The position numbers were made by a program, and so were the translations under genes. A DNA stretch of 64,000 nt, taken from positions 18,296 through 82,295 of IMG/VR virus record IMGVR_UViG_3300033144_005375; one strand, 5' to 3'. The notes beneath the pieces were generated by a model. The model was not told where the DNA came from. It saw only the letters and a list, made by a program, of their open reading frames with translations, and made no database searches. Origin of the DNA: a virus. Of this stretch, positions 17,480 through 64,000 are shown in pieces (position 1 is the stretch's first letter; each line of letters opens with the position of its first letter).

Positions 17480-19168
17480 TTATCGGCGTTGCGCGATGAA
17501 CTGAGGACGGAACACGACGGTTGGAGTCGTCGTGGCTCCGTCGGCACCTTGCAAGGTGCCGATGGTGAAAATCGTATTGCCCGAAGTGGTGGGCGGGGTG
17601 GGGGTTGCGAATCCTGAAATTGCTGAGATAAAAACGAGGCTTCCGTTCAACGCTCCTGCGGGAGCGGCGCTGAATCTCACAACCGGGCAAGTGCCTGATT
17701 TGGTGACAACCTCTACAGAGGCACCTAGAAGAACGGTCTCGTTTGCGACGCCAATCACCTCCCAATTAGCCCCGGCAATAGAGGAATCCGCGCGGATGGC
17801 ATCTCCTGCGGCGTCGAGAGCCACCAGATCCCCTATTGTGAGGGCTTCTCCGGCAGTAAAGGTCTTGACCTCCAGATTGCCGAGCGCGTTATCGAGGCCC
17901 GCCAGGTGCGCCGTCAGTTCTTCAACACTCGTGACTTCCGGGGGAGTGGTGTCTCGCGTGTAATTCGTCGGGATATACGTGATGTCGAGGATGTCCCCGT
18001 CAATCTCGTCCGTTCCATTGTGAACATGTGTGGGGGCATGAGGCGCAGGGATCGGATTGCCGAAACTCAGGATCCCAAAACTGTCCGTGATGATGGCTTG
18101 CCCCGCGGTGCCGTCCGCATTCGGCCAAGTCAGCCCATCAATGATCACATTGTCACCAACGCCGGCTCCTGGATCGAGCACCAGATCGGTAACACCGATG
18201 ATGCTGTCCCCAGTGGACACGCTAATGTTAGTGCCTCCTGTGACGTTCCCTAGTATGAGCGTCTGAGCCAGAGTCTCTCCGCCACCACCACCACCAGGGA
18301 TGGTGATGTCCACGGCACCAGCACCCGCCGTGCTTGCGGTGACTCCAGCGCCAATGAAATCGAACGACGTGACCGCAGCATCGACAAGGACACCTTCGTC
18401 GAACACCGCAACCGAACCGCCCCCACCACCTCCAGCGTTGGGGAAGAACTGGCCGCCGATGTAACCGAAGACGTTGGTCCCGAAACCCCCAACATCCCCT
18501 GTCGAGTTGAACTGGGAAACGACCCGACCTTCGGTGAGGCACAGATTGATCCCCGTGAGCGTAACCAAAGGGAGAGGAGCTCCCGTTGGGAGGGGAACTT
18601 CAATGAGGTAAGAGCCCGGATCAGCACCACTCAAACCGTCCCCTGGAATGGCTGCCGAGATGACGTACTCGCCGTCGAACTCCCGATACGCAGCCGGCAC
18701 CCCTGGGGCCGAGAACCCAGTGATGGTGACGGGCTCGCCGACCATGAACCCGATCGAGTCAAGGAGGGTGGGGATCACGTTGTCGGGAATGACGAACCGA
18801 AGCGTCTCCGCCCCTCGTTCGACATTGAGAACCGCAGGCCGGAGGGCTTGCCCCGTTCCTGCTGGGCCGCCACAATTCCCTTTGTCACGAAACTGGAGGA
18901 TGATCTCCGTCGTGATCAGCCCCTGCTTTGTGAAAATGCAGATGTCCCCTTCGTGCCAGGACACGAAAGTGCGCGTGGACATGGGGATGTCCACCGGTGG
19001 CAACGTCGTACCGGCGCCAAACGGAATTGGAACCGCTCGAGTACGATTCTTCTGAATCGTGATCTCGTCGAGATCGTAAAGAGTCACCGACGCCGGATTA
19101 GGGCGCCCGTCGGCGTAGACCCCTGTGTGGGTACACCGGACGATCAGAACGGCGACAATGTTGCTCAT
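17480..19168 (-). CDS. Virion fibre protein with shared C-terminal domain
   Basis: The 562-residue protein has a distinct N-terminal domain (about 1-230, starting MSNIVAVLIVRCTHTG), a poly-Gly linker (NAGGGGGGSVAVF), a second poly-Gly linker (PGGGGGG) and a C-terminal domain (about 430-562) matching that of the 960-residue neighbour: FTAGEALTIGDLV, then GTLQGADGATTTP, then FRPQFIAQRR. The linkers mark domain boundaries. The N-terminus may dock to the tail. It is the first gene in the adhesin block; a CGGTTTTCG motif (19222-19230) lies about 54 bases before its ATG. Confidence 0.55.
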   Translation of the reverse strand: MSNIVAVLIVRCTHTGVYADGRPNPASVTLYDLDEITIQKNRTRAVPIPFGAGTTLPPVDIPMSTRTFVSWHEGDICIFTKQGLITTEIILQFRDKGNCGGPAGTGQALRPAVLNVERGAETLRFVIPDNVIPTLLDSIGFMVGEPVTITGFSAPGVPAAYREFDGEYVISAAIPGDGLSGADPGSYLIEVPLPTGAPLPLVTLTGINLCLTEGRVVSQFNSTGDVGGFGTNVFGYIGGQFFPNAGGGGGGSVAVFDEGVLVDAAVTSFDFIGAGVTASTAGAGAVDITIPGGGGGGETLAQTLILGNVTGGTNISVSTGDSIIGVTDLVLDPGAGVGDNVIIDGLTWPNADGTAGQAIITDSFGILSFGNPIPAPHAPTHVHNGTDEIDGDILDITYIPTNYTRDTTPPEVTSVEELTAHLAGLDNALGNLEVKTFTAGEALTIGDLVALDAAGDAIRADSSIAGANWEVIGVANETVLLGASVEVVTKSGTCPVVRFSAAPAGALNGSLVFISAISGFATPTPPTTSGNTIFTIGTLQGADGATTTPTVVFRPQFIAQRR

Positions 19169-19271: not shown

Positions 19272-20954
19272 TTACGTCAAGAATTCAGCCAACCGTGTTT
19301 TCACGTTCCCAGGAACGGTCTTGACCTCGGATTCCCAGATCACCAGGCACTCGAGCCCAACCTCAGCGTACGCCTCGATGAGTTCTTGCTCGTGCTCCTC
19401 GGGCCACATATCGGTGAACTTTTCACTATGCCAGTAGTCCCCGTTGACTTCCACTACCTTGCGGAGATCGCGAAAAGGGTGATCAGGGACCGGTCCGCGC
19501 AGCACAAAATCAGGGTTCTTGTGTCGCCCTAGCCGCGGGAGCCATCGCCAAAACCTCCGATCTCCCGTGTACATGAGCCGAGGTTCGAGCTCTTGGACTA
19601 AGCGTTCCGGAACGTTTGGGCCTCGTTGATTGGCCTGGGCATGCAACATCAGTCGAGCGTATTCCCGATCCTGCATCGGGTGCGTCATCCCGTAACGCTC
19701 AACCAGGTCCTCAACCGTCTCGGCGTCCTCGTCGTACGTGGGGAATTCGTGGCCTACTTTGGAAAAGCACTCCCGCAGGATCTTCTCCTTCACCCGCGGC
19801 CATGCAAACGGGTTGTCGTCTCCCCGAAGAACCGGACGCTTGCCTACCAACGCTTCTTGAATCTGGACATAGAGCCGAGATCCCCGCGAGAAGATCTCGG
19901 GATCTCCATATCGTTCAGTGTTTGTCCGACCAGTCTTCCCTCGTGTTTCTTTGTCTTGCTGGGGGTTCTCAACTCCCCACCGGTCCAACATCGTACGCAT
20001 TCGACGAAACCGCGCCACGGCACCAAAATCACGCACCATCCACGCGATACATATCTGCCGGTGACGCTTCATCTGCGTGAGACTTGTACTCTCGTGGCCG
20101 CACAGGCACAGCTCAGGGACCTCTGTGTTAGGCCACCCCTCACAAATCGCCTTGTGGCGACTCGTGACCTTCGTGAAAGCCTCGTCGCAGTGAGGGCAAA
20201 TCTCGTAACTCCCAGAAGCAATCAGGGCTTCTCGATGACGCCGCTCACGCTCGCCACGTTTCCGCGACAACTCCAGAAACCATGCAGGAGCCCGTAAGAA
20301 AGACCGCGCCCCGTGGCGCTCCAAGGTGGTCTGCTCGGTACGTGCCCGAATCTCAGGTACCTGCTGGGGATTCTCGGCGCCGTGCCGCTCCTTCATGGTG
20401 CGCCGGATCTTGGTTTTGATCGGTTCAGAGGCGAAGACGTTCTCGGCCCCGTACCGCTCGAGGTTCGTCTTGGCTCGGCGCCGCTTCACCGCCTTCGCCT
20501 GAAGATGGTGATCGACGCCGTACTTCTTCTGCGCGGCCTGACGGGTCTTCTCTTTAACCTCGTCACTTTGACCGACGTTATCGACGCCGTACTTCTTCTG
20601 CGTCGTCTTCTTACGCTTGGCGCCTGACGACCGAGCAACGACAGGAGCCCTGGGGAACTGAGCTTCGTACTCTTTCCGTTTCATGCCCTCGTGGGCCCGT
20701 TTGAGATGATCACTCAGACGTTTCACACGAATTTGTGTGCCCTCAGCCGCACAGAGAAGGCACCCGACGTAGTCCTCGTTCTCGACCTTCTCAGAAGCCC
20801 ACAGGCCGCGCTGAAAGTGCCTGTCGAAGTTGAACTCCGACGGAGACACCCCAATCACCTCGTCCCATTTGGAGCAGCCGTTCGTGTGCTTCGGGATAGC
20901 CTTGGAAGACGAAAGGACTTTCTGACAAGCGGGGCAGCACACTACCGAAAGCAA
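19272..20954 (-). CDS. EDxHD (Vsr-like) homing endonuclease
   Basis: The 560-residue protein has N-terminal zinc-finger-like segments (CCPACQKVLSSSK, CLLCAAEG), then a repeated DNA-reading motif of the form KKYGVDNVGQS (KKYGVDHHLQ, ERYGAENVF, ERHGAENPQQ and later RWGVENPQQ), and a C-terminal nuclease domain with NPDFVL and VVEVNGDYWHSEKF. That end matches the Vsr-like EDxHD fold of the I-Bth0305I group of homing endonucleases. It nicks or cuts DNA to spread its own gene. It is free-standing, has its own terminator and interrupts a virion gene run, as mobile genes of this kind do. The catalytic Asp and His are present. Confidence 0.75.
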   Translation of the reverse strand: MLSVVCCPACQKVLSSSKAIPKHTNGCSKWDEVIGVSPSEFNFDRHFQRGLWASEKVENEDYVGCLLCAAEGTQIRVKRLSDHLKRAHEGMKRKEYEAQFPRAPVVARSSGAKRKKTTQKKYGVDNVGQSDEVKEKTRQAAQKKYGVDHHLQAKAVKRRRAKTNLERYGAENVFASEPIKTKIRRTMKERHGAENPQQVPEIRARTEQTTLERHGARSFLRAPAWFLELSRKRGERERRHREALIASGSYEICPHCDEAFTKVTSRHKAICEGWPNTEVPELCLCGHESTSLTQMKRHRQICIAWMVRDFGAVARFRRMRTMLDRWGVENPQQDKETRGKTGRTNTERYGDPEIFSRGSRLYVQIQEALVGKRPVLRGDDNPFAWPRVKEKILRECFSKVGHEFPTYDEDAETVEDLVERYGMTHPMQDREYARLMLHAQANQRGPNVPERLVQELEPRLMYTGDRRFWRWLPRLGRHKNPDFVLRGPVPDHPFRDLRKVVEVNGDYWHSEKFTDMWPEEHEQELIEAYAEVGLECLVIWESEVKTVPGNVKTRLAEFLT

Positions 20955-39036: not shown

Positions 39037-41857
39037 CGATCATTTCCTTCCGCATCTGCTTCCAGACATTGTCCAGAATCTTCTCGTCTTCATCGTCGAG
39101 TTCAGGGGCCTCTTCGACCTCGGCACCCGACTCGCCATCGTCTTTTTCTTGGGCAGCCAAGAACAGGGCCACCCGGCTCAGGCTCGCGGCACGCTGGAGA
39201 TATTCATCCGCACCAATGCCAGCAGCCTCGGCCTTTTCACGAGCGTACTTGGTCAGAGCCTCCACGCTCAGTGAATCCTCTCCCAACGGGAAAGTCATAC
39301 CGCGACCCGTTCCCCATCGGCGCCACCAATCTCGGACAGGTTTGCCCGCAGCCATGACGTGGACAAACTCCAGTCCGATAGGCATCGCACCCTCCTGCTG
39401 ATCCGCCTTTTGAGGGTAAACCTCGAGAACCTTAGCCCTCAACTCTTCCGGCATCGCATTCCAAGAACCACTGGGGTAGTTGGCGTTGTATCCAAGAGCG
39501 GGCCACGCGTAGTAACCCTTGTAGGTCCGGTCGTAAAAACTACCAGCAGCCGAGGTCGAAAGCTGCTCGAACCCAAGCTCTCGAGCCATCGCCACTTGGG
39601 TCGCCAACATCTTCGTACCGATGCCTCGGCCTTTTCGTCCTTTCACCTTGAAATGAGCATTGCTGATATTAGTCGGTTTCCCGTTGGCATCGAAATTAAT
39701 GTGGCGCGTCATCACGCTGACCCCAGGACCCCTCCCCTGGACCGTAATGCTCGAACCGTATGCAGTAATCGTGAGGCTCCGCAAAGAGTTAGCGATACCT
39801 CCAGCTCCGGCCAGATCCGCGGCGACCTCAAGAGGGTCCCGATCACCGAGCTTGTCCCCGAGCAACGTTCGGATCTTAGCCTTCGTCCCCGAAGTCGCGT
39901 TGATCTCCACATCTGCGTAACGATCAGGCTGGAAATTCGGAGTGAGATCTCCTTGACCCTTCTCGGCAAAGGACATCTCCCCACCATCAGGACCAGTGAT
40001 TTTCTTGGGAGGGGGTTGGAGTTTCCTGGGAAGCACGTTGATGCGCCGGACGTGGGCCCAATCCGAAAGCTCCGCACCCGTGAACTCTTCGGGCTCCCCG
40101 ATGTCGCGACCCGTCCGCGAGTTGACACGCTGGATAGTCATCCCCCCTGTGTCACGCGAAACGGAAACGATGCGAGCCCACGTCGGCTTCTTGTCCGAGT
40201 AGATCTTGACGATCTTCCCTTCCCGCACTCGGTGGTCCAGCCGGGAAAGCCGTGTTCCGGGAGGCTTGCGTTTCAGGGGCAGCGAGGGTTGAACGTAGAA
40301 GAACTCTTTGTCCTTAAGGGCCTGAGCTGGGATCTCTTTGGGACGACCGTAACGACGCTCGGACTTCGGGTCGTACTCCTGCGCCATCATCGTGTCGCCA
40401 TCCACCTTGGTGACGTAATACTGCTTGGCGTCGTCACCCTCCCCGACACGCATGATGCCCTTGCGGCGCATCTGTCGAGGTTCTTGAACGCGCTCATCTT
40501 TGATAGGCGCCAGACCCGACTCGAGCAATCGCTTGAACCGTCCGGTAATTTCTTCGGGCTTGAGGCGCTCCGCTTGGCGATTTGTGAGTAGCGTATCCGT
40601 AATCTCTTGGGGAGGGCCAAAGTTCCCGTGGTTGTACTCGGTGGCTATCAACTTGTCGCCGACACTGCGCACCATGACATACCGAGATTCGCCATAGCGG
40701 GCCTTGAACCTGAGAACGTCACCTTCCGCCACGTCCTTCGGATCTCGGACCTCCCCAAAAGGACGCTCGCGGTCAGGATCAGGCGTCGGTGCAGGCTCGG
40801 GCTCGGGTGTGGATTCTGGTGCCGCTTCCGGAGCAGGCTTCCGAAGGTACCCTCCGCCACGTTGTTTCTCGATTTCGTCCGGGTAGTACCAAGGGCCGCC
40901 GTCACCACGAATAGCGCCGTCTCGAATTTCCGTGACCTTGAGGAGCTCCTGGCCTCGGAAACCGTCCTCGTAGAACCCGTCGCCTACCTTGAAACCCGAT
41001 AGGTCATCGACGGTATCGAAACCTTCGGGTATTGCCTTCGAGCGAGGCATCTGTTGCCGTTCGGGCTCGGGTGTCTGCTCCGGTTGTGGCCGCTCCTTGA
41101 GCGTGTACTGGTCACGCACAAAAGTGGAGCGCCGCAACGACTGTCTTCTGTTGCTCCACTCCCCGTTTTGCTTTTTCCAGTGGTACTCCACGCGCCCGTC
41201 ATCGAACACGCGAGTCACCTTGATATCTCGACCCGTTCTCGAACGGAGGATATCTCCGCTTTGGACCTGGTGAGGGTCACGAATCGGACCTCCGCCACCA
41301 GGAGCCTGGCTTTGCTGGCTCTGTCGGAACCTCTGCAGCCACTCCTTCCGAACTCGAGCCTGCTCCGGATCTGGGAGCGAACCGAACTGCACGTCCTGTC
41401 GCGTGTCGGGGTTGCGGAATTTCTTGGGAGGCGCCGAGAACTGGTTGAACGCCGCACGCTCCTCATTGGAAAACTCAGCACCGGGTCCCGCCGGCTCACG
41501 AGGTGCACGAGGCGCTTCGGGCTCGGCTGCGGGACTAGATGGCTCCTCTGGAGGTCGGGTGAACAGGTCAGCGACCGGGGTGGGCTCCGGTGTGGGCTCC
41601 GGTGCCGGTTCCGGTGTGGGCTCGGGCTCCGGGGTGGGTTGAGCTTGAGACGGTTCCTCTGGAGGTCGGGTGAACAGGTCAAGAGGCTCGGGGGCTGCTT
41701 CCGGTTCTGGAGCTGCTTCGGGCTCGGGGGCTGCTTCCGGTTCCGCGTCGGAAGGCGGACGTGTAAACAGGTCCAACCCTCCCGATGGCGCCGAAGGAGG
41801 GGGCGACGCAGGAGGAGCCTCCGAAGTCGGAGCCGGCTGGAACAGGTTGAACGCCAT
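39026..41857 (-). CDS. Large multidomain paralogue with GNAT-like core (943 aa)
   Basis: Four N-terminal motifs (FNLFQPAP, then three of the form DLFTRPP) lie in Pro/Glu/Ala repeats (PEPEAAPEPEAAPEP). Then come KFRNPDTRQDVQFGSLPDPEQ, several beta modules (GDILRSRTGRDIKVTRVFD ... YHWKKQNGEWS), and the GNAT-like core from about residue 645, with the best GxG motif of the three (KGRGIGTKMLATQV, about 742-755) and YKGYYAWPALGYN. It ends EKILDNVWKQMRKEMIDGR, the first half of the shared C-terminal module; the second half is in the gene upstream of it. The start is shared with the stop of that gene (TGATG), so they are coupled. Confidence 0.6.
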   Translation of the reverse strand: MAFNLFQPAPTSEAPPASPPPSAPSGGLDLFTRPPSDAEPEAAPEPEAAPEPEAAPEPLDLFTRPPEEPSQAQPTPEPEPTPEPAPEPTPEPTPVADLFTRPPEEPSSPAAEPEAPRAPREPAGPGAEFSNEERAAFNQFSAPPKKFRNPDTRQDVQFGSLPDPEQARVRKEWLQRFRQSQQSQAPGGGGPIRDPHQVQSGDILRSRTGRDIKVTRVFDDGRVEYHWKKQNGEWSNRRQSLRRSTFVRDQYTLKERPQPEQTPEPERQQMPRSKAIPEGFDTVDDLSGFKVGDGFYEDGFRGQELLKVTEIRDGAIRGDGGPWYYPDEIEKQRGGGYLRKPAPEAAPESTPEPEPAPTPDPDRERPFGEVRDPKDVAEGDVLRFKARYGESRYVMVRSVGDKLIATEYNHGNFGPPQEITDTLLTNRQAERLKPEEITGRFKRLLESGLAPIKDERVQEPRQMRRKGIMRVGEGDDAKQYYVTKVDGDTMMAQEYDPKSERRYGRPKEIPAQALKDKEFFYVQPSLPLKRKPPGTRLSRLDHRVREGKIVKIYSDKKPTWARIVSVSRDTGGMTIQRVNSRTGRDIGEPEEFTGAELSDWAHVRRINVLPRKLQPPPKKITGPDGGEMSFAEKGQGDLTPNFQPDRYADVEINATSGTKAKIRTLLGDKLGDRDPLEVAADLAGAGGIANSLRSLTITAYGSSITVQGRGPGVSVMTRHINFDANGKPTNISNAHFKVKGRKGRGIGTKMLATQVAMARELGFEQLSTSAAGSFYDRTYKGYYAWPALGYNANYPSGSWNAMPEELRAKVLEVYPQKADQQEGAMPIGLEFVHVMAAGKPVRDWWRRWGTGRGMTFPLGEDSLSVEALTKYAREKAEAAGIGADEYLQRAASLSRVALFLAAQEKDDGESGAEVEEAPELDDEDEKILDNVWKQMRKEMIDGR

Positions 41858-47245: not shown

Positions 47246-47500
47246 CTACGCTGCCATCTTTTCACGAAACGTGTTTCGTCCCACAGAGGTGTAGTCCCGG
47301 CGCCTACGGATGGGCTGCGTGAGGCTAGCAGCCAGTTTCGCGCGTCCCGCCGGGGTGTTGATGTACTCGGAGATGAGCTTCTGCTTGATCCTCTCCTTTT
47401 CGGTGAGGACCTTCCCGCGCCCTTTGCACACCTCACATTCCGCGAGGCTCGTGAAAAGCGGGATGACGCCCTTCCCCTTGCAGTCCTTGCACTCGGCCAT
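47246..47500 (-). CDS. DnaJ-type zinc-knuckle protein
   Basis: The 84-residue protein starts MAECKDCKGKGVIP and continues AECEVCKGRGKVL, two CxxCxGxG repeats as in the zinc-binding domain of DnaJ. The C-terminus is basic. A small protein with one zinc site; tail or replication chaperone functions are guesses. The start ATG 47500 overlaps the upstream stop by TGATG. Confidence 0.6.
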   Translation of the reverse strand: MAECKDCKGKGVIPLFTSLAECEVCKGRGKVLTEKERIKQKLISEYINTPAGRAKLAASLTQPIRRRRDYTSVGRNTFREKMAA

Positions 47501-56428: not shown

Positions 56429-56911
56429 CTACCGTGGCCCACGCGCGCACCTGGTGGACCCGCGCAAAGTACGTTTCACTTTAGAGAGCGATCCGTATCC
56501 ATTCGTGCGAAGCCACGCGTCCACGGCCGTCCAAGTGGTCTTGTACCCCAGGTACGCCGTCGCATCTCCAGACCCGACAGACGGTTGGTTCTCTGTCGCT
56601 CTGTGGAACCGGAAAATCCCCTTCTTGATGATTTCAAGATCATGGGTAGCCCGGAGAGGTTCGATCCCCATCTCCCGACAGAGCTGGGGGAGAGAACTTT
56701 GTCTATTACGGAGCCACGCGTTCACGGTCGACCAAGTGGCCTTGTAACCCACGTACTCCGTCGCATCTCCAGAGTTCACAACCGGGCGTTTCCCCGTCAC
56801 CTGGCGATGCCGACGAATCCCCTCCTTGATGTCCTCAAGATTGTGAGTCTTGTAGATCCCGAGGAGAGTCCCCAGTTCGGCACAGTTGCGGGCCTGTTGT
56901 GCGCCTCTCAC
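56429..56911 (-). CDS. Protein with two RP-type helical repeats
   Basis: The 160-residue protein starts at a GTG (56911) overlapping the stop of the nine-repeat gene. It contains two related units: THNLEDIKEGIRRH ... GKRPVVNSGDATEYVGY ... TVNAWLRN and THDLEIIKKGIFRF ... ENQPSVGSGDATAYLGY ... AVDAWLRT. The GDATxYxGYxTxWxxVxAWL block also ends the helicase at 58626, and the first half also ends the protein at 60654. It is a DNA-binding-like helical module shared within one operon. Function unknown. Confidence 0.6.
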   Translation of the reverse strand: MRGAQQARNCAELGTLLGIYKTHNLEDIKEGIRRHRQVTGKRPVVNSGDATEYVGYKATWSTVNAWLRNRQSSLPQLCREMGIEPLRATHDLEIIKKGIFRFHRATENQPSVGSGDATAYLGYKTTWTAVDAWLRTNGYGSLSKVKRTLRGSTRCARGPR

Positions 56912-58629
56912 CGTGCCACCCCCGAAATCTTGTTGCGTCCTTTCTTGGGGAGTCCAAGCTCGTCACAGAATTTTGAGACCGAGGACCCGTGATGGTTGCG
57001 GAGCCACCCGTCCCAGGCTTGGAGATCCAACTGTACGGGGCGGTGACCGTGCTTCTTGAAAAAATCCATCATCACGATACGCGCCTGCTCCAAAGTCCTG
57101 CTGTACTGCCACTCCTTCGGCAGACCGAGTGCATCGCAGAACTTGCGCAATGATGACCCACGATACTCAAGCCATCCCTGCCAAGCTGGCAGGTCCTTTT
57201 TCCGCGGTCGTTTTCCGTTCTCCTTGTAGAACCCGAAGACGACTTTGCGCGCTTCCTCCTCGGTTCGGTCCATTCGCAAGAGAGGGGCGTATCCCATTTC
57301 GTCACACACCGCAGGCAAATTCGTGCCGCGAGTCCGGAGCCACCCGTCAACCTTCTGCATGTCTTTGACCCCGGGCCGACGACCATACTTCTCGGCAAAT
57401 TTACGAATCTCGGTTCGGACTGAGCCCATCGTCCTGCCTCGTACCTCGGGACGTTTCGCTGAGAACCCCATCTCTTCACCGAGTCGGGGTAACGAGATGT
57501 CCTGCGACCGAAGCCACCGCGCGAGCTTGGGGAGATCCCGATGTCTCGGCCGATGCCCGTGGGTCTCGTTAAATTCCCCGACTTCGTGTCGAGCAATCTC
57601 CATGGTGTAGCCGTCTACGGGAAGTCCCATTTCATCGCACAGCTCCCGAAGACTGCTGTCATGTCGCTTGAGCCAGTCGGCTCCTTTTCGTACCTCCTTA
57701 TTCATCGGGCGCCGCTTCTCACGGTCGTAGAACTTTTGGACCTCTTGGGTCACCTGCTTTTTGGAAAGCCTCACACTGGCCTTCCCGGGGTGCGCAACCC
57801 GGGAAGACAGTCCCATATCATTACAGACGCCGTGGAGCGTAATGCCTTTGTGGTGTGCTCGGAGCCAACTACACCAGGCCCCCATCTCTTTGTTCGTTGG
57901 ACGGCTCCCGTGCTCGTTGAAAAATGCCTGAAGATCCTCACGGAGGCGAAGCATGGAACGACGCTTTCTGCGACCTTCAGGAAGCCCCATTTTGTCACAG
58001 AGCTTCGATAGGGTCGTACCCCTTCTCCTCAAGAAGTTGACCCACTCAATCATCTCCTTGTTCGTTGGACGGCGCCCTTCCCGGTCGTAGAGCCGCTGGA
58101 TTTCCTCACGGACCCGTTTGATCGTGCGTGGGGTCTTTCCTGTGGGGAGCCCCATTTCGTCGCACAAATCGTGGAGCGACATCTTGTGGTGGTGGGCAAG
58201 CCACTGGTTTTCGCCCGTCATCTCCCGATTCTTGGGCCGTCTACCCTCCCGGTCGTAGAACTTCCTGATCTTCCGTTCGATGCCCCCCTTCGTGCGCCCG
58301 AAATTCCGACCTCCGGGAAGTCCAAATTTCTCGCAGACCTTGTGAATCGAACTGCCGCGCCGCATCAACCACGCGTCCACGTTACGGAACCCATCTTGAT
58401 CTCTCGGGCGACGCCCGTGCCTCTTGAAGAAAGCGAGAATTTTGGTCTCCACACTTCCCATCGTTCTTTTCACGCTCTCCTTGCGATTGCGAGGCTCCGC
58501 GAGTCCCAACAAGACCGCCACACCATGGCAAGTCCGAGCTTGCGGACTTTCCAGCTTTGCCAGATCGAAACCGTCGATCTCCCCCTCGGCTCCTTCGTCA
58601 CTCATGTGGTCGGTCTTGTCGAAAGTCAC
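56908..58629 (-). CDS. Nine-repeat helical protein
   Basis: From GTG 58629 (GTGA overlap with the helicase stop) the 573-residue protein consists of a short N-terminus and nine tandem units of about 57-62 residues. Each unit has RT.....I..FY....GRRP.NKEM....WLRxxGxSLxxLCDEMGLP, with variation such as IRKFYDREGRRPKN, DLCDEMGLPTG, KLCDKMGLPEG. The pattern repeats a helix, a GRRP turn, a helix with WL and a helix with LCDxMGL. Each unit could read a few base pairs, so the chain may wrap DNA or RNA in a modular way. I do not know a named family for it. Confidence 0.65.
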   Translation of the reverse strand: MTFDKTDHMSDEGAEGEIDGFDLAKLESPQARTCHGVAVLLGLAEPRNRKESVKRTMGSVETKILAFFKRHGRRPRDQDGFRNVDAWLMRRGSSIHKVCEKFGLPGGRNFGRTKGGIERKIRKFYDREGRRPKNREMTGENQWLAHHHKMSLHDLCDEMGLPTGKTPRTIKRVREEIQRLYDREGRRPTNKEMIEWVNFLRRRGTTLSKLCDKMGLPEGRRKRRSMLRLREDLQAFFNEHGSRPTNKEMGAWCSWLRAHHKGITLHGVCNDMGLSSRVAHPGKASVRLSKKQVTQEVQKFYDREKRRPMNKEVRKGADWLKRHDSSLRELCDEMGLPVDGYTMEIARHEVGEFNETHGHRPRHRDLPKLARWLRSQDISLPRLGEEMGFSAKRPEVRGRTMGSVRTEIRKFAEKYGRRPGVKDMQKVDGWLRTRGTNLPAVCDEMGYAPLLRMDRTEEEARKVVFGFYKENGKRPRKKDLPAWQGWLEYRGSSLRKFCDALGLPKEWQYSRTLEQARIVMMDFFKKHGHRPVQLDLQAWDGWLRNHHGSSVSKFCDELGLPKKGRNKISGVAR

Positions 58630-60650
58630 GGCGTGGCCTCCATGTTCTTCTGACGCCACGCCATGACAGTTTCCTTGGAGACCGGATGGGCTTGAAGGTA
58701 CGCGTTGACCACACGCCAACTGGTTTCGTACCCCACGTAGGGCGTGGCATCACCGGACGAACTCGTGGGAGGTTTGCCGTGTTCCTCGATGTACTTCACG
58801 GTGCCGGCCATGATGTTGTCGGTGCGGTGTAAAATCCCGACAGTCCTACGCATACTCCGCTCGATCTCTTTGGCGTCACGCCCCGTCAACCGGGAAACCA
58901 TGCGCCAGTTCTTCTTCGACATCGGAGGATCGAATTTGATCTTCCCCCTGTGCTCGCGCACGACGTACTCATCGAACAAGGCGTTGAAAGCCCCCGGAAT
59001 GAGGTCCACAGGGCTCCCCACCGAAGACTTTCGAGACTTGTCCGCAGGGTCCGGCTTCTTTGGCTTGAACATCCTGCGATACGCCAGAGCAAGGGCCTCC
59101 AGCATCGCCTCCCGAGTGTCCTCATCCTTGACGACCGCCGTCACCCGAAGACGCAACAACATTTTCCCTCGGTCATCGAGCCCGAATTTCTCCGCAACAC
59201 GATCCATTTCCGCGAGGCTCAGACTGTCTTCTTCGGGCCGAAGGAACTTGAACGCCACATCAACAGCTTGCATCTCCTCATCCGTGGGCTGGAGCTTGGA
59301 CTCGATCTCGTCGAGGTCCACAGACACAGGTGCCGCAGGAGTGTTGAATTTCACCACGTCCCGGATCACCGACACGAGCATCTGCCCGGCCTCATGGTCC
59401 TCGAGATGCCCAGCCATGAGCAACGCCATCCGAAGGTGGGCGGACTCGAAGGCAGGACGCGCCATCTTGACCTTCATCTCTTTCGTGAACTCCGGCACGA
59501 AGAACGTGATCCGAGCGATCTCAGGATGAAGATGCCCCGTGATGCCCTCCTTGGTTCGGAAAGCGCGACCCCAACGCTGGTTGGTGCGTCGAATCGATTT
59601 CGGGAATCCAACGTGATAGACGTGGCTGCACAGAGGCCAGTCGGTGCCCTCGTTGAACCGCGCGCAAGCAACGATCACATCCGCCTCTGAGTCGTCGATG
59701 TGGGTCACCTCGCGCTCCGTGGCCAGGAGAGCAACCAAACTGTCCTGGAACGCTTTACCGGTGCCCACCGCGTTGTGGACCCTGGCCTTGTCGCCGCCGC
59801 GGTACGGAACGCGCTCCTTCTGGAACGCCTCCACAACACGATGACTCCACGACTTGGATTTTCCGGGAGGAACGATCACAATTACCTTCGGGTAACCATC
59901 CCTGCGCCACTCGCGAACCATTTTCTTGATCGCCCCGGTGCTGATGCGCCTGGGGAGCTTCCGCCCGTAAAGCTCATCGTTGGTACGCACCCGATAACCG
60001 GAAAGCCCCACCGCGTGGATCTCAAAGTACTTCGGGGCGTAGCGTTTCCCATCCACATCCGGCAACGAATGCTGGGCGATGGAGCGGCGCACCTGGACGA
60101 AACTTTCGTCGTACACCCGTAGACCATCCGTTCGGTAAGGCGACGCGGATACTATGGCCAAACACCCTCCACGGTCTGTCCACTCCTTGCGCTTCTTGCT
60201 GATAAGAGGCGCATCGTCTGTGGTTTCCACGGTACTCCCGTGAGCCTCGTCCACGAACAACACCCACCCCGTCAAATCCTTGGGTAGCGAAATGCCGGTG
60301 AAAGACTGACGACAGACCACCGCAGCGAACGGCCGATCCTGCCAGTGTTTCCGGAGCCATTTCCCGACAACCCGTTTGGTGCTTGGCGCCCCGTTGTAAA
60401 TGGTGGGCTCGAACAGACTTTCCGGAGCAGCCCCGTTCTTCATGAAACTGTCTCGGATCGTCACCATCGGAACCGTCACCACGGCGCCGTTCCAGTCCCC
60501 TCGACTCAACTCGGCAATAACGGAGGAGACCACGGTGGACTTCCCGGCCCCGGTCGGGGCGTTGTAAAGCACATCCCGACCATCGTGAAGGGCCCCGAGA
60601 AGGGCTTTGCGGTGCTTGACTTGGTATGGGCGGAGTTTGAACTTCGTCAT
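58626..60650 (-). CDS. SF2 DEAH-type helicase with C-terminal helical module
   Basis: The 674-residue protein has motif I YNAPTGAGKST, motif II LFVDEAHGS, motif III SASPY and motif VI QRWGRAFR, after an N-terminal YQVKHRKALLGAL like the Res/UvsW group. It is an ATP-dependent DNA or RNA translocase or helicase. The C-terminal 60 residues carry SSSGDATPYVGYETSW and VVNAYLQAH, the same block as in the 56429 protein. No nuclease domain is visible. It is three bases after the upstream gene and coupled to the nine-repeat gene, so the three products are made together. Confidence 0.85.
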   Translation of the reverse strand: MTKFKLRPYQVKHRKALLGALHDGRDVLYNAPTGAGKSTVVSSVIAELSRGDWNGAVVTVPMVTIRDSFMKNGAAPESLFEPTIYNGAPSTKRVVGKWLRKHWQDRPFAAVVCRQSFTGISLPKDLTGWVLFVDEAHGSTVETTDDAPLISKKRKEWTDRGGCLAIVSASPYRTDGLRVYDESFVQVRRSIAQHSLPDVDGKRYAPKYFEIHAVGLSGYRVRTNDELYGRKLPRRISTGAIKKMVREWRRDGYPKVIVIVPPGKSKSWSHRVVEAFQKERVPYRGGDKARVHNAVGTGKAFQDSLVALLATEREVTHIDDSEADVIVACARFNEGTDWPLCSHVYHVGFPKSIRRTNQRWGRAFRTKEGITGHLHPEIARITFFVPEFTKEMKVKMARPAFESAHLRMALLMAGHLEDHEAGQMLVSVIRDVVKFNTPAAPVSVDLDEIESKLQPTDEEMQAVDVAFKFLRPEEDSLSLAEMDRVAEKFGLDDRGKMLLRLRVTAVVKDEDTREAMLEALALAYRRMFKPKKPDPADKSRKSSVGSPVDLIPGAFNALFDEYVVREHRGKIKFDPPMSKKNWRMVSRLTGRDAKEIERSMRRTVGILHRTDNIMAGTVKYIEEHGKPPTSSSGDATPYVGYETSWRVVNAYLQAHPVSKETVMAWRQKNMEATP

Positions 60651-60653
60651 GAC

Positions 60654-61517
60654 CTACTCCCCGTCCTTTCCAGTTCCTGTTGCCAAGGGACGTGTTCCGT
60701 GCTCCTTGTAGTATTTCCGGATGCCCTTCTCGATGTCCTTGAGGTTGTGGGTTCCCACCCCCCGTTCAGGAAACAATTCGTTGAGATACAGAGGGATCTC
60801 CCGATCCTCACTGCGCAGCACCAATGAGGTCTTCAAAAGAAACTTCATCTGCTCGAGGGTTTCCGCGAAGGTCACTTTGGAGGAGTTACTCTCCCACTGA
60901 CGCAGTAAACGACCGAGCGTTTGAGTCACCCCGCGCCGATAGGCACGTTCCGCGGGACTCTGGGGAGCGAGCCCAGAGGTAGCCGTCTCTTTGGCAACTT
61001 TCCACCTGTTTCCGTTGAACACGTCGCCGAGAGCAACACGTCGCATAGGGGCCATGCTCTTGACCGCCTCCTGCAACGGCTGCCATGCCGCTTCCAAATC
61101 CTCCTTTGAATAGCAAATCGCCATCAACCGAGACGCCAAAATGTGAGGGAGCTCCTCTCCCCGGCAAAGGGCCTCATGGAGACTCACCGCATCAGGGTCT
61201 CCAGAGACTCCCTCACCGTCCTCGTCCAGAAAACTGCGACCAAAATAGTCAATGGGATCGTGAAGCATCGGATCACCAGACCACTCCGCACGCATCAGGA
61301 TGACGCAATAAGGAGCACCCTCCGGCACCGTGCCAGTCGGGAACTTCGAACTGTGCACCGCCTTCGCAATGTTCCAGTTCTTGTAGCCGTGACTTGATGC
61401 TACAGCATGGAGACAGTTGACGTGACCGAGCTCGATGCCCTGTTCCGCGAGATGCTGACGCAGCAGCTTGGCCTGAGTTTTGAGAGATGGGATGGTAGAC
61501 GAATTTGTGCTGTCCAT
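60654..61517 (-). CDS. Glyoxalase-superfamily-like N-domain protein
   Basis: From ATG 61517 the 287-residue product starts MDSTNSSTIPSLKTQAKLLRQ, then HLAEQGIELGHVNCLHAVASSHGYKNWNIAKAV. This LKxQAKxLRxxLxxxGxxLxHxxxLxxVAxxxGYxxWN pattern is found in proteins annotated as glyoxalase-superfamily and related short domains. The middle is not recognised. The C-terminus (THNLKDIEKGIRKYYKEHGTRPL) is the first half of the RP-type helical module of the next genes, then stops. The truncation of the module may be real or a lost second half. Confidence 0.6.
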   Translation of the reverse strand: MDSTNSSTIPSLKTQAKLLRQHLAEQGIELGHVNCLHAVASSHGYKNWNIAKAVHSSKFPTGTVPEGAPYCVILMRAEWSGDPMLHDPIDYFGRSFLDEDGEGVSGDPDAVSLHEALCRGEELPHILASRLMAICYSKEDLEAAWQPLQEAVKSMAPMRRVALGDVFNGNRWKVAKETATSGLAPQSPAERAYRRGVTQTLGRLLRQWESNSSKVTFAETLEQMKFLLKTSLVLRSEDREIPLYLNELFPERGVGTHNLKDIEKGIRKYYKEHGTRPLATGTGKDGE

Positions 61518-62450: not shown

Positions 62451-62466
62451 CCGCTATTTCTAGCGG
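62451..62466. other. Short hairpin in the leader of the 62511 gene
   Basis: CCGCTA and TAGCGG form a six-base-pair hairpin with loop TTTC, 45 bases before the next ATG. It lies between the terminator-like hairpin and the next gene and could act on translation. No other feature is seen in the gap. Confidence 0.35.
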
Positions 62467-62510
62467 GTGACGGTCAGCCTGGTGAGGCCGCGCGGGTTGT
62501 AGGCCAAAAC

Positions 62511-63044: not shown

Positions 63045-63206
63045 AGTCTGGACGCTCTCCATCCTTCTGATCTCGCTACCCCTTCTTCGGACGCCGACGA
63101 ACCCAAGGCTCCGACCATCGGGTTCTCGGTCTTTGAAAACTTGACCGGGATCCGACCGAACGTCGCGATAACCGGATTCAAGGGCTTGGATCACCGCTAG
63201 ATCGAT

Positions 63207-64000
63207 CTAAGCCCTGCGGAACACGAGGATCGGCTCCGTGGCGCGCTCCTTCACCCGGTTCAGTCGAGCAAGCGGCATCCCCAAAGTCCTCTCGTACTCG
63301 AACCCCACTTCCAGAGCCAGAGCCTTCACGCGATCCGGCAACGGGAACACCTCTTTGCGGTGCCGAACATCAGCCACGTTCAGCGCCAGCACCCCACCCT
63401 TCCGAAGCCCCTCGTGTGATCGTTGGATGAGCGGCTTCATGAACCCCTCGATCCACTTCTCGAACGTGGAAAAGCTGCGGAAGGACTGCGCCTCACTTTC
63501 ACCGTAGTGCTCCACGTTGAAATACGGAGGCGACGTGAACACCATGTCCACCTCGGGCACCTTGAAAGTCTGGGCCGGCTGGAGAACCACCTGGGCCTCG
63601 TAGCCCAGAGCTTCCGCCAACTTCTGGTTCCCCACCACGGTCTCGGGCTCGACATCGGTGCCGACGTACTCGACCCCAGCCGCAGCCGCCCCCATGAGGC
63701 GTCCTCCCCATCCCGCACAAGGGTCCCAGACGCGCCCTCCCTTCGGACAGTACGTTTCGTACATGAGTTTTGCCACGGCTGGACGGAACACTCCTGGGGT
63801 CCGGCAGCCCATGGTGAGCGCCTGGAGGACGCGATCTGGAAGTACCGGATCCCCGTAGCGGAGCTGAAAACGGGCCGCCTTGAACAATGCCTTGTCCTCA
63901 TGCCATTTTTCGTAAGCGGAGGCACGACCTCGATAGGAGCTTCGATACCGGTGGGGAAAAAAGGAAGCACAGGCCCTCGTCCCCCTCCAAGACTGCGAGC
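63207..64000 (-). CDS. DNA methyltransferase, partial at the window edge
   Basis: The frame is open to position 64000, so the N-terminus may lie outside the window. In the visible part are RYRSSYRGRASAYEKWHED (upstream of a TTG at 63887), then WDPCAGWGGRLMGA, the AdoMet-binding motif I, and FTSPPYFNVEHY, the catalytic motif IV (TSPPY) of N4-cytosine or N6-adenine methyltransferases. The C-terminal half is alpha/beta with no target-recognition domain, so it may be an orphan phage enzyme protecting DNA from restriction. The base type cannot be given from this sequence. Confidence 0.82.
   Translation of the reverse strand, partial: SQSWRGTRACASFFPHRYRSSYRGRASAYEKWHEDKALFKAARFQLRYGDPVLPDRVLQALTMGCRTPGVFRPAVAKLMYETYCPKGGRVWDPCAGWGGRLMGAAAAGVEYVGTDVEPETVVGNQKLAEALGYEAQVVLQPAQTFKVPEVDMVFTSPPYFNVEHYGESEAQSFRSFSTFEKWIEGFMKPLIQRSHEGLRKGGVLALNVADVRHRKEVFPLPDRVKALALEVGFEYERTLGMPLARLNRVKERATEPILVFRRA

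Follow-up and report, generated by a model that had tools for sequence, protein, structure and literature searches.

The homing endonuclease associated repeat (HNH_repeat; Pfam PF18780) is built of helix-GxxP-helix-helix units in tandem, and no functional account of this repeat or of the HA domain (PF03457) was found in the literature. TALE units are about 34 aa long and consist of two helices. TALE, STAR, and pTERF proteins combine a constant scaffold, variable positions, and many units, and are compared here for how they work, with no homology implied. In the text of one article (PMC11417379), the DNA-binding tandem repeat families STAR, MOON, pTERF, NORD, and MIRAGE are presented without a helicase, and neither phage nor HNH is mentioned.

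The window analyzed here is a stretch of 64,000 nucleotides, positions 18296–82295 of the 82,295-base IMG/VR virus record IMGVR_UViG_3300033144_005375, and its end is the end of the contig. Its translation contains four neighboring genes, all on the minus strand, for an upstream protein, an SF2 helicase, an array of tandem units, and a 160-aa protein. The observation behind the original prediction, four genes that include a helicase and tandem helical units and that share a module, was correct. We class the finding as a helicase whose C-terminal repeats have been turned into separate, translationally coupled subunits with a reader-like signature. Window-type arrays were found on three contigs only: the window, IMGVR_UViG_3300031673_000006 (L003), and IMGVR_UViG_3300031566_000066 (L005); comparisons of these arrays draw on those three contigs, which are incomplete genomes, and on one orthologous array pair. 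None was found in catalogued phages or in the genome_contigs set, nor did catalogued phages yield relatives of the window helicase, of the 588- and 202-aa proteins of L003, or of the more distant L007 and L020. The repeat does have relatives: the array scores above the HNH_repeat cut-off, and sister repeats occur on viral and bacterial SF2 helicases. No Rfam elements were found.

The helicase (58626–60650, minus strand; 674 aa) scores 25.6 for ResIII (cut-off, 22.5) and 22.7 for Helicase_C, slightly under the cut-off of 23.5; P-loop (GAGKS) and DEAH motifs are present and PDB profiles match as well. By these sequence features the protein is a member of the XPB/RadD/ResIII group of SF2 helicases. 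Profile comparison gives 2e-11 for XPB-II and 2e-5 for RadD, and in a fold search the helicase model resembles RadD and DNA-bound Type ISP/SNF2 motors. The core is like that of XPB-II and RadD, whereas the C-terminal region differs and carries a repeat unit; the NCBIfam RadD equivalog does not recognize the protein. This single SGDATPYVGYETSW-type unit (58641–58841, minus strand) matches the 160-aa protein (blastp, E=1e-9) and the 202-aa protein of L003 (E=6e-11), which upholds the claim that one related unit ends the helicase.

The array ORF (58719–56908) is open for 603 aa, up to TTG 58719. The most likely start is GTG 58629, because its GTGA overlaps the helicase stop, a Shine-Dalgarno-like GGAGG lies about ten bases ahead, and the arrangement in L003 matches; this start gives the 573 residues originally reported (56908–58629, minus strand). 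The nine tandem units postulated for this protein were recovered by a unit HMM that, to avoid circularity, was trained only on the L003 588-aa and L005 arrays: it found exactly nine in the window array, at 51–65 bits each. These units, of about 56 aa, span 56932–58473 (minus strand), with 5′ ends at 58473, 58302, 58134, 57966, 57774, 57615, 57441, 57273, and 57105. Elsewhere in the window the HMM scored the 160-aa protein at 31 bits and the tail of the upstream protein at 12.5 bits; the best unrelated ORF of the six-frame translation reached 6 bits, and no composition-shuffled control was among the 15 best matches listed. The N-terminal leader of the array (58474–58629, minus strand) contains ARTCHGVAVLLGL, which resembles helix 3 of the unit; the leader recurs in the 160-aa protein and in the L003 arrays, and may be a half-unit cap.

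The 160-aa protein (56429–56911, minus strand), whose GTG start overlaps the array stop as GTGA, consists of two related units, as had been predicted. Unit 1 (56657–56857, minus strand) and unit 2 (56456–56656, minus strand) belong to a sister subtype, SGDATxYxGYxxTW, and are 74% identical to each other over 140 nt. Profile comparison of the array and SGDAT subtypes (hhalign, probability 98%, E about 1e-14; reversed controls, <1%) shows that the two are homologous. The 160-aa protein matches the L003 202-aa protein over the second and third units of the latter (46% over 134 aa, E 1e-34).

The gene upstream of the helicase has an ORF (61709–60654) of 351 aa if fully open; the protein is more likely 287 aa long, from ATG 61517 (60654–61517, minus strand), with a Glyoxalase_8-like stretch followed by a C-terminal half unit, THNLKDIEKGIRKYYKEHGTRP (60666–60749, minus strand). 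No relative of its main body was found in L003, L005, or the viral_contigs set. Over its C-terminal 30 residues, the upstream protein matches the opening half of unit one of the L003 202-aa protein (50% over 28 aa, E=7e-7) and then stops, which agrees with the prediction that the first half of a unit ends this protein. In L003 a complete three-unit gene occupies that place, and the half unit aligns with the beginning of this gene; the half unit is therefore probably a truncated remnant of such a gene. A three-unit gene would once have preceded the helicase, only its start surviving there, and the array is now followed by a related two-unit gene. Contrary to the coupling first proposed, the upstream and helicase genes do not overlap. 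Sharing of one module across four coupled genes therefore stands for neighboring, coupled genes and not for four equal partners, the upstream protein having a truncated half unit only.

The closest relatives show how helicase and units are associated. In L003, whose helicase is 74% identical to that of the window, the order is a 202-aa three-unit protein, the helicase, and arrays of nine (573 aa), five (326 aa), and ten units (588 aa); four-base overlaps (ATGA, GTGA, ATGA, and TTGA) occur at each of the four junctions. The four-nucleotide start/stop overlap between helicase and array is kept in both phages, and the units of the two nine-unit arrays are colinear and 73% identical. In L005, a more distant phage, one 945-aa ORF encodes the helicase followed by seven units, as identified by the unit HMM. 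No other evidence for joint action of helicase and array is as strong as this fusion. The suggestion that the shared module implies a common complex or nucleic acid is consequently supported for helicase and array, by the fusion and the four-nucleotide overlaps, and not for the upstream protein as an equal partner.

Among known families, the best match to the arrays is HNH_repeat, which scores 57.1 bits in the window, 54.9 and 81.1 in L003 (the 588-aa protein scoring 81), and 48.5 in L005 against a cut-off of 26; the L003 326- and 202-aa proteins fall under it. Single-unit matches are limited to two stretches in the window array and one or none in its relatives. By Pfam rules the array is, at the level of the whole protein, an HNH_repeat member without the nuclease, its unit belonging only distantly to the family; Pfam finds no HNH domain in the operon proteins, and the partner here is an SF2 helicase instead. 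Membership of the HA domain family was considered and rejected (17.3 in the window and 20.6 in L003 against a cut-off of 28.4; hhalign not significant). Kinship with TALE was likewise rejected: there was one weak tblastn match (E 2e-4, 21%), no TAL effector repeat family appeared among the Pfam matches of the arrays, and the unit here has 56 aa and three helices.

More distant relatives, found by a search with the helicase alignment, place the operon in a broader clade. Most of its distant helicases have repeats in the corresponding C-terminal position, and these repeats are of at least three kinds. The helicases L007–L009 end in four SGDAT-type units, and L011 has five HA domains (Pfam, 144 bits); a Morganella phage helicase, 24% identical over a quarter of the L011 length, is its sole catalogued-phage relative. 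HA helicases thus belong to the same clade and have their repeats in the same C-terminal place, fused as in L005, whereas the arrays of the window and L003 are separate coupled genes. Helicases with fused SGDAT/GRWP-type units also occur on two contigs of metagenome-assembled genomes (L019, L020) and in a bacterial genome (G480). In another bacterial genome (G522) the repeats are found in 465–501-aa proteins, one of which has a weak terminal helix-turn-helix (HTH) match (24.6 bits; cut-off, 27). SGDAT and GRWP units match each other (hhalign, 98%). The SGDAT/GRWP repeats (L007, L019, L020, G480, and G522) are homologous to the window repeat and lie on related helicases, except for the G522 repeat proteins; they differ in having a longer unit with an insert loop and in being fused to the helicase, whereas the window arrays are split, and they are unnamed in the libraries searched. 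Repeats of the form GRWP...GLPGGSSLA (L030 and L033 of G522; L031 and L034 of G480) make up repeat proteins and helicase tails, and no Pfam family was found for them. Separately, the phage helicases L015, L016, and L017 bear several C-terminal NGGKLP...WLKxNGY...FxHIKRE repeats; homology of these to the window units was tested with hhalign and was not significant. In the helicase tree, the three helicases that come with arrays form a modestly supported group (67/76), which falls among helicases carrying fused SGDAT units (97/97); because of this placement, which is no proof by itself, the split arrays are best read as derived from a fused ancestor.

The fold of the unit was modeled with AlphaFold2 on three window units, with an alignment of 12 triplets. 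The model has nine helices, three per unit (mean pLDDT 86, pTM 0.49), which makes the predicted fold of a unit credible but not the way in which the units pack against each other. A short turn separates the last two helices of the unit, as in HTH domains; in L005, HTH_35 exceeds the Pfam cut-off, and there are weak matches to further HTH families. Searches of PDB and BFVD with the array model gave no significant structural match (best E 0.64 and 0.007, respectively), so the HTH-like reading draws on secondary structure and weak family matches, which suggest that the unit is a three-helix, HTH-like bundle.

Within each array, a constant scaffold (helices 1 and 3) contrasts with 12 variable columns after GRRP: identity is 71% against 18% in the L003 588-aa array and 74% against 20% in L005, and the contrast is milder in the window array (41% against 19%). 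In the model these columns make up the loop that follows GRRP together with the N-terminal half of helix 2; two more positions that vary are found where helix 3 begins. Orthologous units from the window and L003 share 75% identity in the patch, against 24% for mismatched units; in 100,000 permutations the observed identity was reached once, by a permutation equal to the true pairing. The dN/dS of the patch between orthologues is 0.16 (95% bootstrap interval 0.06–0.30) and that of the scaffold 0.14; paralogue dN/dS is not interpretable, as synonymous sites are saturated, and was replaced by the identity contrasts and the orthologue test. The patch is under purifying selection and is unit-specific in this one orthologous array pair, which argues for a function, because a functionless loop would drift between orthologues and this patch does not. 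The array therefore has the signature of the modular-reader class, a constant scaffold with unit-specific, conserved variable positions, and to that extent the proposal that the repeat looks like a modular nucleic-acid reader gains support. Both a modular reader and unit-specific docking of proteins would be expected to show such a patch.

Building on the computed units and their homology, the fusion, the coupling, the helicase class, the variable but conserved patch, and the predicted three-helix fold, we consider it fairly probable that the system is a nucleic-acid-directed motor, in which an SF2 translocase of the XPB/RadD/ResIII group would be the engine and the tandem three-helix units its targeting surface. 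In the ancestral form, represented by L005 and the distant relatives, the repeats would form the C-terminal end of the helicase itself; most of them would have turned into separate, translationally coupled subunits in the window phage and L003, where the helicase keeps one unit. Each unit may face duplex DNA with the loop that follows GRRP, the N-terminal half of helix 2, and the beginning of helix 3; the variable residues would give each unit its own preference, and a nine-unit array would bind a single long site and recruit the helicase to it. We infer the DNA ligand, the sequence specificity, the formation of a complex in trans, the recruitment, and the role, which would most likely be in replication or transcription and tied to one fixed position on the genome of the phage itself. 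A target of this kind would be the simplest, given that the patches are kept in two phages whose helicases differ at about one residue in four. A search of window positions 40000–64000 revealed no repeat that could serve as the target. Short tandem repeats of 12 and 18 nt at 41500–41745 lie in a large ORF and are probably a coding low-complexity stretch.

Tandem units, coupled genes, and unit-specific conserved patches would look alike if the units were protein–protein modules, forming an elongated scaffold for several helicase copies or phage proteins with each patch a distinct docking site, and the lack of a structural match to a DNA-binding protein is compatible with this. We consider such a scaffold unlikely given the high pI of the nine-unit arrays (10.1–10.4 in the window and L003), the likeness to HNH_repeat and HTH domains, and the XPB/RadD-like DNA motor as partner, although a basic charge combined with an HTH-like fold would suit an RNA-binding protein or a protein scaffold as well. 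The units might instead bind DNA or RNA without specificity and raise the processivity of the helicase, the variable segment being a drifting surface. This would suit their positive charge and the free variation in repeat number and kind among helicases of the clade, but drift is contradicted by the dN/dS of 0.16 and by a segment that stays matched unit by unit, and the chances of this reading are slim as well.

A gene for an N6/N4 DNA methyltransferase (63207–63887, minus strand) lies near the helicase and array in the window, and its homologue (64%) adjoins the helicase-array fusion in L005; its linkage to the system is uncertain. Methyltransferase, SF2 motor, and target-recognition array could form part of a restriction-like, defense, or anti-competitor system, in keeping with the ResIII motif, the presence of Type ISP in the fold list, and the weak similarity of L020 to dnd-type restriction and Pbe helicases. 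Such a role is improbable, as the operon has no nuclease, no methyltransferase homologue was found on the L003 contig, no PADLOC family covers the array, and the helicase matches are to generic SF2 proteins. Finally, that the arrays are functionless by-products of homing elements, namely decayed target-binding parts of HNH homing endonucleases, would accord with the name of HNH_repeat and with the LAGLIDADG-type endonuclease genes near the operon in L003 and L005, but is very improbable in the face of purifying selection on all parts of the array, conserved coupling, and the absence of an HNH domain by Pfam.

Homing endonuclease genes lie beside the capsid gene and helicase operon in L003 (6201–7175) and L005 (4537–6513) and elsewhere in the window (19272–20954); the frame of the L005 gene runs on into a DNA methyltransferase. 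A complete capsid gene is absent from the window contig, which stops shortly after its methyltransferase gene, at the point where the capsid gene of L005 is located. Scraps of capsid sequence were seen at 63093–63143 (plus strand) and 62463–62504 (minus strand), corresponding to residues 258–274 and 278–291 with 88–100% identity to L003; one of the two is on the opposite strand. A small ORF around 47267–47389 (minus strand) joins a DnaJ-like CxxCxGxG zinc motif to residues 8–48 of the major capsid protein (88% identical to those of L003), and a 300-aa protein of L005 (10038–10940) seems, by eye, to contain the central part of the capsid protein in diverged form.

Taken further, the favored reading of a nucleic-acid-directed motor could amount to a new class of sequence-reading protein, in which 56-residue three-helix units carry a roughly 12-residue patch that sets base preference and arrays of 5–10 units act in trans to bring a phage SF2 translocase to a defined site; this we advance only tentatively and think doubtful. 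If true, the fold would differ from those of TALE, PUF, PPR, and zinc-finger arrays. Should nucleic acid be read unit by unit, the units would constitute a new repeat scaffold for sequence recognition with a motor attached, for which the natural arrays of 5, 7, 9, and 10 units would offer variable residues already separated from the scaffold by evolution. For this family of helicases, the architectures described here indicate that the repeat tail can be exchanged between kinds and released as separate subunits.
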